A stretch of 64,000 bases of DNA from positions 186,001 through 250,000 of the forward strand of contig BLLK01000029.1 in NCBI GenBank assembly GCA_021927905.1, given 5' to 3'. This document shows, in pieces, positions 14,273 to 44,657 of the stretch. The DNA comes from Chaetoceros tenuissimus. Lineage: Eukaryota > Bacillariophyta > Thalassiosirophyceae > Chaetocerotales > Chaetocerotaceae. The notes below the pieces were generated by a model. The model did no database searches, had not been told where the DNA came from, and saw only the letters and a list, made by a program, of their open reading frames with translations. The position numbers were made by a program, and so were the translations under genes. Numbering within the stretch: position 1 is the stretch's first letter; each line of letters opens with the position of its first letter.

Positions 14273-14594
14273 TGCAAGATATTCACGTTTTGCTTCAACT
14301 ATGTAATGCTTTCTTGTGCTTCAATCAGGTAAAGCCTTTTCTCTCAAGCCTTTTTGTTGGAATACTAGAATGAAGTCTTGTACTTTACGTGAGATAGGTT
14401 TCCGAAGGCGGAGTTATGGCAACAGTCGTCTACTAGAAGCAAAATATATTGTTGGTGAGATGATCTCTTTAGATGGTTCGTCCTCTCTCTCCTCATCATT
14501 ATCACATCTCTCTCCTCCTCACTCTGTTGCGCGCCAAAATATTTACAAAATTGTCTCTCTTTGATTGAAAATGACTCTTTTAGCCAAGATTGGA
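14273..14594. promoter_or_regulatory. SMC5 upstream region, cut off by the LTR element
   Basis: 322 bp between the SMC5 start codon and the left LTR. It has a CT-rich stretch (~14487-14523) and one E2F-like site. Before the insertion the spacer to the gene now at 19636 was only about 510 bp, so this was probably a shared divergent promoter. Confidence 0.55.
14529..14539 (-). promoter_or_regulatory. E2F/DP-like site upstream of SMC5
   Basis: The sequence GCGCGCCAAAA reads TTTTGGCGCGC on the SMC5 strand, matching the TTTSSCGC core bound by E2F/DP factors, about 260 bp before the SMC5 ATG. This is a motif match only. It fits an S-phase chromosome gene. Confidence 0.4.
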
Positions 14595-14886
14595 TAGTTT
14601 AATATTGGTGTGGTCCTGTTTTTACACCCTGTTTTACGTGCTATCGTAGCGCTGTATGGGTTAGAGCGAAGGTCTGTCTCCTCACTTAATATGGCTAAGT
14701 ATTAGGCTTATCAAGCTCAGTATTATGGTTCTCGGTATCTTTTGTTGATGTTTTGGCTCTTTCAGAGTATCTTATAGTTTTAGAGGTAGTTAGAATCTAT
14801 CTAATAGTAACGAGTGTTTCAGCACCTATTCATAGCGATATCTCTCTAGTTTAGAGCTGCAGGAGCTGCACAGCGATATTTAATCA
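14595..14886 (+). repeat. Left LTR (292 bp)
   Basis: Begins TAGTTTAATATTGG and ends GATATTTAATCA. Identical by eye to 19153-19444. The start is TA rather than the usual TG; the end is the usual CA. Confidence 0.95.
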
Positions 14887-14922: not shown

Positions 14923-17279
14923 AAGGGATGGTGTTGAGTTACTATCTTTTATTTGTTAATTTGAGCTTGTTGTGTTCGTAGTATTCTGATTAGGCTCTGA
15001 AACAGGGCATCAGATACAACCCCATGGCATACCGAATGGCAGCCTCATCACTGGGATTCTTCGTGTTCGAGACGTCGAGACGAAGATATAAGTTTTTGTT
15101 GAGCTGACTGATCATCAGCTACCTATTGCAAGATATGTGTAGTTGATGACACGTATACCATCTCGTGATGGATGCAAAGGATGAGAGAAGGCCTTGATGT
15201 GCCTGCACAACTACTAACATAAGCTAACATATCATTTACAACAGGATTTGAGTTATCCTTTTATGATATTTGTTTATAGCGACAGTCATAGCCTTGTTCA
15301 GGCTGCGTACATTGGGAAGAGCCCATGTAGCGTGTAAAGGGACACACGTAAAGTGTAAATTCAACGATACTTGCTACTTGCAGTATCATTTACAGTTGAA
15401 GAGTAAAGCAAGATGCAAAAGGCCGGGTGGTACTTTGCAGCAAGGTGAAAGTAGCTATTTCACAATTAAATTGTTTGCTTTACTCACTCAACCCTTTACG
15501 AAATAGCGAGATTAGAAATTGAATGTTCCATAGCTAGAAGAAGTTTATTACTTTACATCTACCATGTTTCATACCTTTAGCTCTTCAAATCAAAATGGGG
15601 GAAAGGATAGTGACAGCAAAATGTATTGACTTATGTGCTCATAGCAGAGCGATGAACGAAAATATTTCTGCGGCAAAGAGAAATGCAGGGATTGCATGTC
15701 CATTTTTGGCTGCATTGATCGTTTTGATTCTCGGTCCAAAGATATACGTATGCGTTCAAAATATAAGCATTTACTCTGGTAGAGTATTGAGTGAAAATAG
15801 TTTCATATTGTACCCTGCTTCAGTAATAGATGACATTTAAAGGAAATGAGAAGACCGTCATCTTCCATGGTAGCAGAGGCATATGCAAATTATGACACTT
15901 GGTCACGGTAACTATTCCGGGTTGCTGCTGAATATACATACATTTTATTATTTATCTCACAAACCGCTCGATAGAGTAGTAGAAAGAACTAGTCATAGCT
16001 CCAAATTGTTGCATGTGGCAGCAGATTCGCGTAGGCGAGATACCTTCTCATGCATGTTGGATAAGTACTGGATACACGATGGTATCACTTATCTAGAAAC
16101 ATGTATCGCTGACAAGTGGTCAAGTGAGGGAAAGGGTATGCACCTAGATTGTATTGGTATTACGAAGACAGAGACATACCATTATCATTGCCTGCTCCAT
16201 GTCATAGCATCGAATATTGTTAGAGATATTGTGATCTTGAATTGTGAAAGAGTCTGATCGTTAAAAAAAATGAGTTGGTGTATGCTCATCTACGGAGACT
16301 CGCATGTTGTCGGTTTGAAATTATGAACGTGTTCCTGAAAGAGGAATTGTATTACTGATGTGTAGTGTCTTGACTTCTACATGAAATGGAGGAATTGATA
16401 CAGAGATGATGATCTGTTTGGTGAAAGCCTACAATCTCCTTCACTCCTTTATTCATTTACCTTGTTGGACCACAAGACTTGTATGATTCGCACGAGTTGA
16501 CATGGTTTTGAAAGATTATTTTGTTGGTTTCACTGACGGAAACACATGCAGATGGTGATTTGTAATTGTGTTGCCAAAGCGACGACGGATACGTTTTATG
16601 GTTTATTTATTTTAAGTGTCTTGTTGTAACGCGAACGCAATTCGGATGTCTTATCATCTCATAGCTTTGTCAAAAGTGCGTCAAGAGAATGAATTACGTT
16701 GTGGGACGAAGGATTTCCCTAGATAACGATTATGAGATTACGAAAGAGTTGAGCTTGCGACTGAAAATTACATTTGGGTTAAGAGATAAGATTACGGGGT
16801 TGTTTGCGATGTATGCATGTATCGACGAGGGATCATTTTACCATCAAGATATCAAGTTGGAAAAGCATTGAGTATAGAGCGACTGAACGTATTGATTGTG
16901 AGAATGATCTCCATACGGTATAGTGCATATGCATCAGTTAAAACACGATCTGGATTTTATTATTACATCATGATATTACTCAACAAGCAGATGCTGAATT
17001 CATTACTGCATAGGTTCAAGATGTCCTGCTAACTCGCCAATTTCAGGCTTGAGGGAGAAGAAATTGATACTGCAGTGTGTGATCGCGTCACACCTAGTTC
17101 AAGCCTTCTTTGCCGAGTAACTATTGCATCGTTTACAGCTGTTTGCAGAGAAATTATTCTCAAGCTTACATAAAAGTGTGGAATGCAGAACGGTAATATG
17201 TCGAATGCAAGGGTGCCGTGGTTTCGAATGAGTGGACTTATTTGAACCTGTAGTGTCTAATGAGTTATTGTAGGCAACA

Positions 17280-17408: not shown

Positions 17409-19152
17409 ATGCTAGATACTTGAAGAACAGGTGAAGTCCCATCTCAGAGTTACTACTTCATCGGGCTATGCATTGATTGACTAGCTGCAGTGGATGCTAG
17501 AAAGGTCATAGATCCACAAGGCACAATAAGCATGATCCGCAAAGTGTGATAAGTATTCGTTGTCCAATTGCATTTTGTTGCTTTATTACTTTGGTGCCTA
17601 GTGTGCACTTTGACAGTTGTAGCATGGAGTTGCAACGACTGTGTCATAACCAGCAAATGTTTGCGAATAATATAATGGATTGCATTCGAAGGGAGAAGTA
17701 TACCCGAAGTTGCAATGGAGGCATTAGTGTATGTCCATTATAGGAAGTTCGAGATAAAAATCATCTTGTTGTAATAGAATGAATCGGAGATGATATTCGG
17801 ATTGTCGTAACAGAGTGAAGAATTCGAGAAGTGTACTTTCAAAGTACTCATAGAATTGTGTGAACATTTGCTTCTAACTCAAGCCAACAATAGGCGCTGA
17901 CCTTTTGTTATCGTTTGTACTGACAACGAGGGTTGAGTATGCGTTCCGTAGCATGTCTTATAGCGGCATGGCTTAGGAGACAGCATGTTCATACCATATT
18001 GTTTGAAAGTGTAAGAGGACTCAATTGAATGAGTGGACCGTCTCGTGTTTTATTTTAGCAGTCATTCCAGGGACAGGTATAGGTATAGTAGAAATTATAG
18101 CTTTGCCCCTTCAGAATGCAACTTGCGAAACCTTTAGGTGACTACTGCGTAGCGCGAGAAGCATGTAAGAGAAGAGAGACTCAGGCTGATTTAGTTCAAG
18201 ACAGCTGATTCAAGAAAGAACTGTTTAGGTTCACGACTTACGGGGAGTCAAATATGTGCTTTGTTAGATTGGATCGAAGCTGCTACTGATAGGAACAATG
18301 TTTCTTGTTGTGTGGTAGTATAGGCGATACCACAAAGGTACATGTGACTCGAGAAATAAAGTGAAGGGTATTATATCCCATCCTGAGTGATGAGAAGGAT
18401 ACTCAAGGTTTGACTTTCAATTTTGGTTTACATTTTACATTATCCATTTAATGACTGGTTCATATCTAACACTTGTAATGTCATAACGAGACTTACAACG
18501 TGATTTAATAGTGTGATGATGTGCAATTCGAAAGAGGTCAGCTTGCGTCGCGAATATGTAGATAGTGCAAGTGAGCTTCATGGTACAAGAGCATACTTCT
18601 AACGGCTGCAGAGTTAAGGTGCAGCGGTGTCCATCTCAGATGGAACAGTTGGAGTATTAGTTATCTGAAGTCTATATTGTAAATGGAACGATGAGATCTT
18701 AGTTTTTGAAGGAAGAGTTAGTTTCATAAGTAGGTGTACGACATGGTCCTGTGATATGAATGCGTGAGAACTTGAGATAGTTCTGAGGCCCTACTTGCTA
18801 TTGTAAAGACTATAGGCAATCCAAGAAGGATTAGTAAGTGCCTAGCTAGGAGAGCTAGTCTATGAGGAAATAGTAGTGGGCTTAACGCATGGGGTTATCA
18901 GGATCATGGTGGAGGTTACATCTTTGCTGTATCGATATAGATCATTATTGGAAGCCGTACAGGTAATAGTGACAGATTATTGATTGAAGTAAGTATATGC
19001 TCAATATGAGCAGAGTCAGTAATGACGAGGATGCAATTGCATGAATTGCAAGCGTAGGTCCTTCTCTTTGCAGTTGTACCTCCTGGCGTTGCGCAGAAAC
19101 CAGGTCCCCTTTTGGGTATATTAGTCCAATACGAGAATCGCATTGCGGGGAG

Positions 19153-19444
19153 TAGTTTAATATTGGTGTGGTCCTGTTTTTACACCCTGTTTTACGTGCT
19201 ATCGTAGCGCTGTATGGGTTAGAGCGAAGGTCTGTCTCCTCACTTAATATGGCTAAGTATTAGGCTTATCAAGCTCAGTATTATGGTTCTCGGTATCTTT
19301 TGTTGATGTTTTGGCTCTTTCAGAGTATCTTATAGTTTTAGAGGTAGTTAGAATCTATCTAATAGTAACGAGTGTTTCAGCACCTATTCATAGCGATATC
19401 TCTCTAGTTTAGAGCTGCAGGAGCTGCACAGCGATATTTAATCA
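19153..19444 (+). repeat. Right LTR (292 bp)
   Basis: Identical by eye to the left LTR. Preceded directly by a purine tract and followed by the TGGA target duplicate. Its end is 191 bp from the ATG of the coiled-coil gene, so it may now supply that gene's upstream promoter sequence or polyadenylation signals. Confidence 0.95.
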
Positions 19445-41862: not shown

Positions 41863-42639
41863 TTAAAAAGGTGCAGCACTCTCGAATGACAATTTCTCCC
41901 CAGTTACTGGATGCTCAAAGCTAATTGTCTTTGCATGTACACACATTGACTTTGCTGCAGATGCAATTGACTCCTGAAGCTCAGCAGATGCACTTGATGC
42001 AGATGTTCCTGCCTCAAGTCCTCCATTAGCTGCTGCTTCTCCATTGATTCCATATACCTGATCTCCTACAATTGGGTGTCCATAAGCTGCAAGGTGAACA
42101 TTGAGCTGGTGTGTACGTCCAGAAATACTAGTCAAAGATACACGAGTGACAGCATTTCCCTCGAGCTCTTCCTTTCCAACTACAGTGAACTTTGTCAAAC
42201 TCTCCTTTGGTCTCTCAAGAAGCTTCTTTCCAACATCCTCTACAGACAATCCAATCAATGCTTTTTGGTGCTCATCGGTAGATACACGCATGTATGGTGG
42301 GAACTCATAGTCTCTCATAAGTGGAAGATTGATGGTGCCCTCAGCCTCTTCAATGGACCCGCATGCAAGTGCCTCGTAAGTACGAGTTACACTGCGAGTA
42401 CGGAAAGCAGTATTCATGCCACGAAGAGCATCCTCGGTACGTGCAAATACAACAAGTCCGGAAGTATCCATACCAAGTCTGTGTACAACCATCTTGTCAG
42501 CACGTCCGGATTCAGATCCGAACTTGTCGAAAACAGCTTGTGAAAGGGATGGGTTGTTGTCCTTGTTTGGTACACAAAGTACTCCAGCTGGCTTATCAAC
42601 AACAACAATGTGCTCGTCCTCGAAAACAACCTTAAGATC
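41863..42639 (-). repeat. Inverted repeat arm A (exon 2 of copy A)
   Basis: 777 bp, matched in reverse orientation by 43881-44657 with about seven differences by eye. Similarity ends exactly at the intron acceptor on one side and at the stop codon on the other. Confidence 0.9.
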
Positions 42640-42940
42640 CTGTTTTGTGAAGAAAAATGGGAAAGTTAGAAAATGACCTGTGTAGACAAGTTGATTTCTT
42701 TCACATAGAAATGAAGATGTTCAATTTACTTACATCTGGATTAAGTTTTGGTGAAGTCGCATCTTTTGCTCGTAATTTTTGCATTTGTGCAGCAAGTTTT
42801 GCGTTGATGTCATCAGCAGTAACTGCTACATTGCATTGTGTTGATGAAATAGATCGCGATTGTGGGAAAGTAGATGGTGCAAAAGCACCAGCGAAGGAAG
42901 TGAAACATAAAGCAGCTATTATGGTGGATGTGAATTTCAT
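41863..42940 (-). CDS. Plastid-targeted RluA-family pseudouridine synthase, copy A
   Basis: Seen: exon 1 is 42940-42734, a 94 bp intron follows, and exon 2 is 42639-41863; 327 aa. The N-terminus is a signal peptide ending SFAGA-FAPS, the diatom plastid-type junction. Exon 2 gives the RluA fold: VVFEDEHIVVVDKPAGVLCV (~74-93), the active-site block VVHRLGMDTSGLVVFAR (~120-136), SGRTHQLNVHLAAYGHPIVG (~226-245) and a C-terminal VHAKTISFEHPVTGEKLSF. Known: RluA/RluC/RluD enzymes convert uridine to pseudouridine in rRNA or tRNA. Odd: the block reads HRLG, where the family has HRLD with the catalytic Asp. Exon 2 is ~99% identical to the copy at 43881-44657, while exon 1 and the intron differ. Inferred: plastid rRNA modification, or a non-catalytic RNA-binding role. 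Confidence 0.85.
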
Positions 42941-43330
42941 TTTTTATTTTGTTTTGAATTAGTGGAGGTGAAAATTTATGGACGAACCGTTGTGTTGTTT
43001 GAATAGAAAGATGAAGAAATTTTGTAGAATGCAATTTGTGTGGTCCTGTGCCTCTTTTCAAAAACACATCAGTGTGTTCTGATGATGTTGGATGGTGTCA
43101 ACCTTTTGTTTTAACGGTATTTCCGATAGCCGTTATAATGATGGAACCAGTGGCCTCATAACCCAAGAAAAACGCACGAACTTGGCTTACCACAAACAAT
43201 CCCTTCTTACTTAGCTTGCAATTAGTCAGCACATCAAGGTTTCTGGTCACCCATCACTCAAATACAGTTGTATTCTACTCTTATCAACAACAGCAATTTC
43301 AGCTACAAAGACTATATAATAATATTCAAT
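42941..43330. promoter_or_regulatory. Bidirectional promoter of the pseudouridine synthase pair
   Basis: 390 bp between two divergent start codons. There is no obvious symmetry between its halves, so the two promoters have diverged. It contains ACACATCAGTGTGT (~43064-43077), a small palindromic motif. Confidence 0.55.
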
Positions 43331-44657
43331 ATGCGTCTTACATTGATTGCTTCTGTTCTTCTTGCTGCAGTAAACGTTGATGCGTTTGCACCAGTCAACA
43401 CCGGACGTTCTGTAACCTCTCTTCAGAGCACTGTTGAGGCTACTGACTTCAACTCCAAGTTGGAAGCAAGCCTTGCTAAGATGGCTGCAAGAGATGCTGA
43501 GTCCAAGATCTCTGCAGATGTGAGTTTTACAAAGTTATAAAGGAGAGAGTTTCTATTTCATGAAATGAAGCAGTAGGTGAATGAGTGGTGATGGGTGGAC
43601 ATTACCGAAGAATGTTTTCAGATAGACAAAGGATTCGGAAGTGTTCAGTAGTCTGAGGACCTAATGTGCTGTACAGGGAGGTTCTGCAATTTGACAATTA
43701 TATGTTTTATAAAAAAGAAAGGAATCATGCTCTGTATATGGAAGAAGATGGAGATCAAACTTTCAAACAAGGCCTCACTCACCTACTGCTGAAAAAAGAG
43801 ACTCGGAAAAGAAATTTGATTTTGGTATGCAGAAATTTAACTTTGATTTCTTTACTAACAATAATTTTTTCCACAAACAGGATCTTAAGGTTGTTTTCGA
43901 GGACGAGCACATTGTTGTTGTTGATAAGCCAGCTGGAGTACTTTGTGTACCAAACAAGGACAACAACCCATCCCTTTCACAAGCTGTTTTCGACAAGTTC
44001 GGATCTGAATCTGGACGTGCTGACAAGATGGTTGTACACAGACTTGGTATGGATACTTCCGGACTTGTTGTATTTGCACGTACCGAGGATGCTCTTCGTG
44101 GAATGAATACTGCTTTCCGTACTCGCAGTGTAACTCGTACTTACGAGGCACTTGCATGCGGGTCCATTGAAGAGGCTGAGGGCACCATCAATCTTCCACT
44201 TATGAGAGACTATGAGTTCCCACCATACATGCGTGTATCTACCGATGAGCACCAAAAAGCATTGATTGGATTGTCTGTAGAGGATGTTGGAAAGAAGCTT
44301 CTTGAGAGACCAAAGGAGAGTTTGACAAAGTTCACTGTAGTTGGAAAGGAAGAGCTCGAGGGAAATGCTGTCACTCGTGTATCTTTGACTAGTATTTCTG
44401 GACGTACACACCAGCTCAATGTTCACCTTGCAGCTTATGGACACCCAATTGTAGGAGATCAGGTATATGGAATCAATGGAGAAGCAGCAGCTAATGGAGG
44501 ACTTGAGGCAGGAACATCTGCATCAAGTGCTTCTGCTGATCTTCAGGAGTCAATTGCATCTGCAGCAAAGTCAATGTGTGTACATGCAAAGACAATTAGC
44601 TTTGAGCATCCAGTAACTGAGGAGAAATTGTCATTCGAGAGTGCTGCACCTTTCTAA
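43331..44657 (+). CDS. Plastid-targeted RluA-family pseudouridine synthase, copy B
   Basis: Seen: exon 1 is 43331-43519, a 361 bp intron (GTGAGT...ACAG) follows, and exon 2 is 43881-44657; 321 aa. The N-terminus MRLTLIASVLLAAVNVDA-FAPV is a signal peptide with an AFAP junction. A short homologous spacer (DFNSKLEASLAKMAARDAES) matches copy A's DINAKLAAQMQKLRAKDATS at only moderate identity. The enzyme part is the same as copy A except SADLQ for SAELQ and TEEKL for TGEKL. It also has HRLG (Gly ~119) in place of the catalytic-Asp motif HRLD. The intron is almost four times longer than copy A's and unlike it. The gene is divergent from copy A and in the same direction as ZNG1. Confidence 0.85.
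43881..44657 (+). repeat. Inverted repeat arm B (exon 2 of copy B)
   Basis: Partner of 41863-42639; equal length of 777 bp. The spacer between the arms (42640-43880) holds both first exons, both introns and the shared promoter. Confidence 0.9.

Follow-up and report, generated by a model that had tools for sequence, protein, structure and literature searches.

Two neighbouring genes of the diatom Chaetoceros tenuissimus, here called A and B, probably owe their nearly identical second exons to recent gene conversion, long after the duplication that produced the pair. The genes lie head to head, A on the minus strand and B on the plus strand, diverging as mirror images within the 64,000-nt stretch of DNA that we analysed (the window; G+C 39.35%). 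We assign a probability of about 85% to the reading that DNA-templated gene conversion between the inverted arms, following an old duplication, explains the identity of exon 2.

Gene A consists of exon 1 (42734-42940, 207 bp), an intron of 94 bp (42640-42733, GTAAGT..CAAAACAG) and exon 2 (41863-42639, 777 bp including the stop codon), all on the minus strand. Gene B, on the plus strand, consists of exon 1 (43331-43519, 189 bp), an intron of 361 bp (43520-43880, GTGAGT..CACAAACAG) and exon 2 (43881-44657, again 777 bp including the stop codon). Both models were drawn from sequence alone, transcripts forming no part of their basis; the intron position is identical in the two genes and both introns have GT..AG ends. 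Each first-exon translation has a hydrophobic start and an AFAP motif, a mark of diatom plastid import, and we read the two features together as a putative plastid-type presequence. The start codons are separated by 390 bp (42941-43330), presumably a divergent promoter region, whose two sides are unlike. A repeat search returned the second exons as inverted arms (41863-42655 and 43865-44657) of 793 nt, 99% complementary and 1209 nt apart. The spacer between the arms (42656-43864) is unlike on its two sides and contains the two first exons, nearly the whole of each intron and the presumed promoters of both genes. Searching the genome (41,027,912 bases in 68 contigs) at the DNA level gave two matches, the pair itself, and on this ground a third copy or a distant donor was rejected; the nearest other protein relatives in the genome are 46% and 42% identical. 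The published assembly of C. tenuissimus NIES-3715 is described as 41.0 Mb in 85 scaffolds with 38.9% G+C (PMC8613185).

Over 777 bp the second exons differ at six positions (99.2% identity). Four differences are silent (exon 2 positions 132, 222, 651 and 774) and two replace an amino acid (positions 660, E/D, and 740, G/E), leaving 2 of 258 residues different and both frames open. An earlier note on this DNA had put the identity of the 777-bp exons at about 99%, silent sites included, and had argued that selection on the protein could not explain it. Both statements hold: with codons redrawn from the genes' own usage, ~113 silent differences would be expected in the 250 comparable codons, where four are seen, and 3 of 139 four-fold sites differ. 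The similarity runs from the splice acceptor to the stop codon, as had been described. On the acceptor side of exon 2 the exact match extends for 6 bases, with 12 of 20 bases in agreement, and past the stop codon it extends for 0 bases, with 7 of the next 20 in agreement. Alignments of the 200-bp 3' and 5' flanks scored no better than shuffles, and local alignment over the 300 bp preceding exon 2 stayed at shuffle level (19.0, against a shuffle mean of 18.5). The global intron alignment (-104.5) did exceed all 300 shuffles (maximum -107.0), an excess that we ascribe to the common splice-site ends. The description of the introns (94 versus 361 bp) and 3' flanks as unlike is borne out. The clustering of the six differences (longest clean run 429 bp, p ~0.055) was not used as the mark of a sub-tract.

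The first exons tell of a much older event. The earlier note had called them unlike, which overstates the case: in alignment, 118 of 183 nucleotides and 25 of 62 residues agree, and no shuffle did as well. The amino-acid alignment reached a score of 79, where 5000 shuffles that left the AFAP motif in place gave 55.5 at most, and in a whole-genome search the two exons are each other's best non-self match (E 0.008 and 0.013). On these grounds we rejected unrelated first exons, and from their sequences the two are judged homologous. Silent divergence in exon 1 is near saturation (pS 0.68, dS ~1.8, a rough value from 46.7 silent sites), whereas dS in exon 2 is 0.022. Equal silent divergence in both exons, which the earlier note had named as evidence against its proposal, is thus far from what we found. 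With exon 1 at this dS and introns and flanks devoid of clear similarity, the duplication is older than the identity of exon 2 suggests. The two exons of one pair run on different clocks, which is how conversion of exon 2 following an old duplication shows itself. The heterozygosity of C. tenuissimus is reported as 1.56% (PMC8613185); the silent distance in exon 2 is of this order, which may place the last conversion at roughly the age of ordinary alleles.

In the mechanism that we propose, A and B would descend from an old inverted, head-to-head duplication of a gene in the nucleus that encodes an RluA-family protein of plastid type. The first exons, introns, intergenic region and 3' flanks have drifted apart, and exon 2, which codes for the whole conserved domain, would have stayed close enough for recombination to act on it. 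Intrachromosomal conversion from one inverted arm to the other would then have copied it between the genes, on one or more occasions and in recent time; with one genome compared, a single event would fit as well as many. In yeast and rodents, conversion is reported to require ~200 bp of good homology and to be much rarer at ~80% identity, and in rodents it declines with distance (PMC3924818). Exon 1 (189 and 207 bp, ~65% identical with gaps) and the unequal introns fall below this need, and exon 2 is the one stretch with homology above the ~200-bp minimum. Conversion would be confined to exon 2 because only there does enough homology persist, and the tract would end at the splice acceptor and the stop codon as the places where homology stops, with RNA processing playing no part in defining it. 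An exon-sharp border thus needs no RNA intermediate.

Codon usage points to the direction of the last transfer. We scored each codon by the log-ratio of its use in light-harvesting over ordinary genes, on a small reference of our own choosing (5 light-harvesting coding sequences versus 11 mechanically called open reading frames). The mean is -0.77 for exon 1 of A, as in ordinary genes, and +0.19 for exon 1 of B, which is shifted towards the light-harvesting genes (permutation p ~0.0006 for B versus A, from first exons that supply only 67 and 61 codons). Both second exons (A +0.09, B +0.12) resemble exon 1 of B. Since exon 1 of A leans to the ordinary side and both second exons match exon 1 of B, B is the likely donor and A the likely recipient; codon usage, with this statistical support, suggests that B overwrote A.

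We further looked at other inverted pairs in the same genome, beginning with the light-harvesting family (PF00504, 63 matches), one protein of which, compared with solved structures, most resembled fucoxanthin chlorophyll a/c proteins. The pairs were chosen by eye among the 63 matches and form no unbiased sample; eight pairs of opposite-strand neighbours were fetched, six head-to-head and two tail-to-tail. Three of the six head-to-head pairs are near-identical with the likeness limited to the coding region: L028:3052-4531 (contig C54), L030:2824-4754 (C16) and L029:2780-4838 (C14). The L028 arms (623 bp, 99.7% identical, 234 bp apart) match exactly for 23 bp upstream of the start and 3 bp past the stop. 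The L030 arms (618 bp, 98.7%, 696 bp apart) do so for 5 bp and 3 bp, the BLAST arm extending ~15 bp upstream of the start codon, and the L029 arms (746 bp, 99.9%, 567 bp apart) for 55 bp and 58 bp. Within the coding stretch the three pairs show 2, 6 and 1 nucleotide differences. Like A and B they stand head to head, with identity ending a few to 58 bp from the coding ends; unlike A and B they are single open frames in the compared stretch and have stronger codon bias, and the C14 pair keeps its 55 and 58 bp of flank. The other three head-to-head pairs (L033, L041 and L042) had no self-match of 250 bp above 85%. The head-to-head layout does not guarantee homogenisation. Of the tail-to-tail pairs, L040 likewise had no self-match of 250 bp above 85%, and L034 is 87% identical.

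Light-harvesting copies elsewhere in the genome give a scale for these values. More distant copies match at 87-89%, and one member each of the C16 and C54 loci (C16a and C54a) differ at 71 nucleotides. Dispersed copies on different contigs (L031, L032, L043 and L028; L035, L036 and L037) are alike mostly over the coding stretch, at 94.5 to 98.9%; one such pair (C14x/C58x) has alignable flanks on both sides. In eight comparisons of dispersed copies, 6 to 16 silent differences were seen against 44 to 54 expected, and codon selection may be a partial explanation for these copies. At the C44 locus (L038/L039), two copies on the same strand, ~12 kb apart, are 97.4% identical over 4930 bp, flanks included: this is a plain recent duplication, which carried its flanks along as expected.

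Coding-limited near-identity is therefore recurrent among the loci examined in this genome. Taken together, the A/B pair and the three light-harvesting pairs suggest a part for interlocus conversion within inverted pairs in shaping some gene families of this diatom. Three further families were judged by places and scores only. Heat-shock-factor domains have at least 151 matches (150 of 233 candidates scored), and among the matches listed most neighbours of equal score are on the same strand. One head-to-head pair of these domains occurs on C16 (3158865-3161941; 3158865 minus, 3161654 plus; 66.5 and 66.6 bits), and same-strand runs with nearly equal scores occur at C14:1446884-1479633 and C43:61844-70866. 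Among the 20 HSP70 matches, places and scores gave no head-to-head pair of equal score. Histones have 29 matches; a close, head-to-head pair of equal scores lies at C16:2592724-2596496 (2592724 minus, 2596179 plus), and C14:526781-550797 contains two pairs with equal scores, the members of each on opposite strands at a distance of 22-24 kb.

The earlier note had offered gene conversion, in line with our results, in two forms, templated by spliced cDNA or bounded by diverged noncoding DNA. The second is the better mechanism. In the first, the reverse-transcribed mRNA of one gene would have repaired the other, and the start of similarity at the splice acceptor speaks in its favour; the genome is also described as richer in retrotransposons than the other species compared, with mention of reverse transcriptase domains (PMC8613185). 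The exon-limited border is, however, undiagnostic by itself, because copying from either template would end at the limit of homology. The two introns remain whole and differ from each other, exon 1 has not been carried over, and we found neither intron loss nor transfer across the exon junction at A and B; a cDNA template is therefore not needed. The abrupt end of identity at the stop codon leaves no common 3' UTR or poly(A) trace, and a homologous DNA donor lies 1.2 kb away. In addition, an adjacent light-harvesting pair shows 2 differences where dispersed copies show 15-24, in five comparisons within one family, with age as a confounder. A diffusible cDNA would not be expected to give such a proximity effect, which counts further against a cDNA template. 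We consider a cDNA intermediate very unlikely.

A recent duplication of exon 2 alone, captured behind another first exon, would agree with the repeat search, in which exon 2 was the one part with clear DNA similarity. It is highly improbable: the homology of the first exons as reciprocal best non-self matches and the equal intron position speak against a foreign first exon, and it would take a coincidence for an insert to land in mirror position with each of its ends at a functional border. Plain recent duplication in this genome moreover brings flanks along, as at C44.

An assembly or polishing artefact, in which one second exon was overwritten by the other copy, has to be weighed if the source is the published assembly, a MaSuRCA hybrid of MinION and 300-bp MiSeq reads subsequently treated with HaploMerger2 (PMC8613185). 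The arms exceed one MiSeq read, and such an assembly might over-homogenise copies that were already very close. Yet the six differences remain separate in the two copies, one would not expect the short reads of an exon that had really diverged to be lost, and three light-harvesting pairs display a like pattern, so that we give this explanation very little credence. That purifying selection and codon bias kept exon 2 identical with no conversion at all has next to no chance of being right: the domain is conserved and exon 2 codon usage is mildly biased, but the deficit of silent and four-fold differences given above led us to reject codon bias as the sole cause for this pair.

What appears to have been copied is a domain lacking catalytic residues. 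The RluA-type domain encoded by exon 2 is complete (PF00849, E 6.3e-24 for B; TIGR00005, E 4.6e-47 and 160.7 bits for B, 1.7e-47 and 162.2 bits for A, both below the cut-off of 192.7). Its best solved relative is E. coli RluA (2i82, E 6.4e-25), and RluD (1prz) matches at E 3.9e-20. A and B share the domain with these enzymes and differ from them in having Gly for the catalytic Asp and Asn for the Arg of motif III. Motif II reads HRLG instead of HRLD in both (Gly codon at 44046-44048 on the plus strand in B, 42472-42474 in A). The Asp is present in 13 of 13 bacterial relatives and in each of the 11 loci, out of 14 others in the same genome, where the motif pattern was found (no match in 3). Motif III reads HQLN instead of HQxR (Asn codon at 44418-44420 on the plus strand in B, 42100-42102 in A); here the Arg is present in 13 of 13 bacterial relatives and in each of the 5 of 14 own-genome loci with a pattern match (no match in 9). 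The active-site Tyr is kept in A, B and all 13 bacterial relatives. With the catalytic Asp and the motif III Arg missing from both copies, both products are probably non-catalytic pseudoenzymes. They are perhaps RNA-binding or assembly proteins of the plastid; that they keep a role, in binding plastid rRNA or assembling ribosomes for instance, is a guess. A scan of a genome-contig collection gave 13 loci, all bacterial, at 26-33% identity. A scan of a viral-contig collection gave 4 candidate stretches, none confirmed, and no eukaryotic homologous locus was found in the two scans.

The closest precedent for A and B is the Drosophila Amylase pair, Amy-p and Amy-d, a palindromic arrangement with coding-limited concerted evolution for which the source cites Shibata and Yamazaki 1995 (PMC3924832). 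Both cases involve two linked paralogues in palindromic orientation, with near-identity, silent sites included, confined to coding DNA. Whereas species were compared for Amylase, A and B come from one genome, that of a diatom, belong to the RluA family and are near-identical in one exon of two, exon 1 having escaped. Ectopic conversion is also described for the palindromic Hsp70 pairs of Drosophila (PMC3924832). These share the orientation with A and B and represent a different gene family. An intron border is not known to be involved in the Hsp70 pairs.

Among diatoms, Synedra ulna has two silicon transporter genes, SuSIT1 and SuSIT2, with identical coding DNA; the authors who describe them raise non-crossover gene conversion, and stated in 2018 that they were aware of no case of it in a diatom genome (PMC6114903). 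These are diatom paralogues like A and B, but the SuSIT identity could reflect a very recent duplication, and the old, unlike first exons and introns of A and B speak against one that is merely recent. The 18S rDNA of Chaetoceros is the subject of a paper on concerted evolution (PMC7804092); among the best-ranked matches of a search of open papers, we found no study of interlocus conversion in other diatom protein genes. We file the A/B pair with the known coding-limited concerted evolution of inverted pairs, and what sets it apart is the exon border and the domain that we consider dead.

Conversion of this kind would mean that the pair records two histories, exon 1 keeping the age of the duplication and exon 2 that of the last conversion, and for paralogues of this sort, trees built from coding sequence and dates taken from dS would be misleading. 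Such conversion could also leave both genes of a pair lacking the same catalytic residues. A more far-reaching reading is that the inverted exon 2 arms form a maintained device, with a like layout at three light-harvesting loci, in which conversion holds both domains identical and a crossover of the arms can turn the 1.2-kb centre round without damage to either gene. We regard this as doubtful. The centre that would flip comprises both presumed promoters, the targeting exons and the introns, which would change place relative to the two 3' ends. If this were true, it would offer a recurrent way for regulation and targeting to diverge while the domains stay locked, here locking a catalytically dead domain.

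Elsewhere in the window, a direct repeat (14592-14886 and 19149-19444) is 99.7% identical between its two copies, which lie ~4.5 kb apart and enclose one open reading frame of at least 100 aa (15883-16257). The two copies may mark the ends of a young mobile element, as its terminal repeats.
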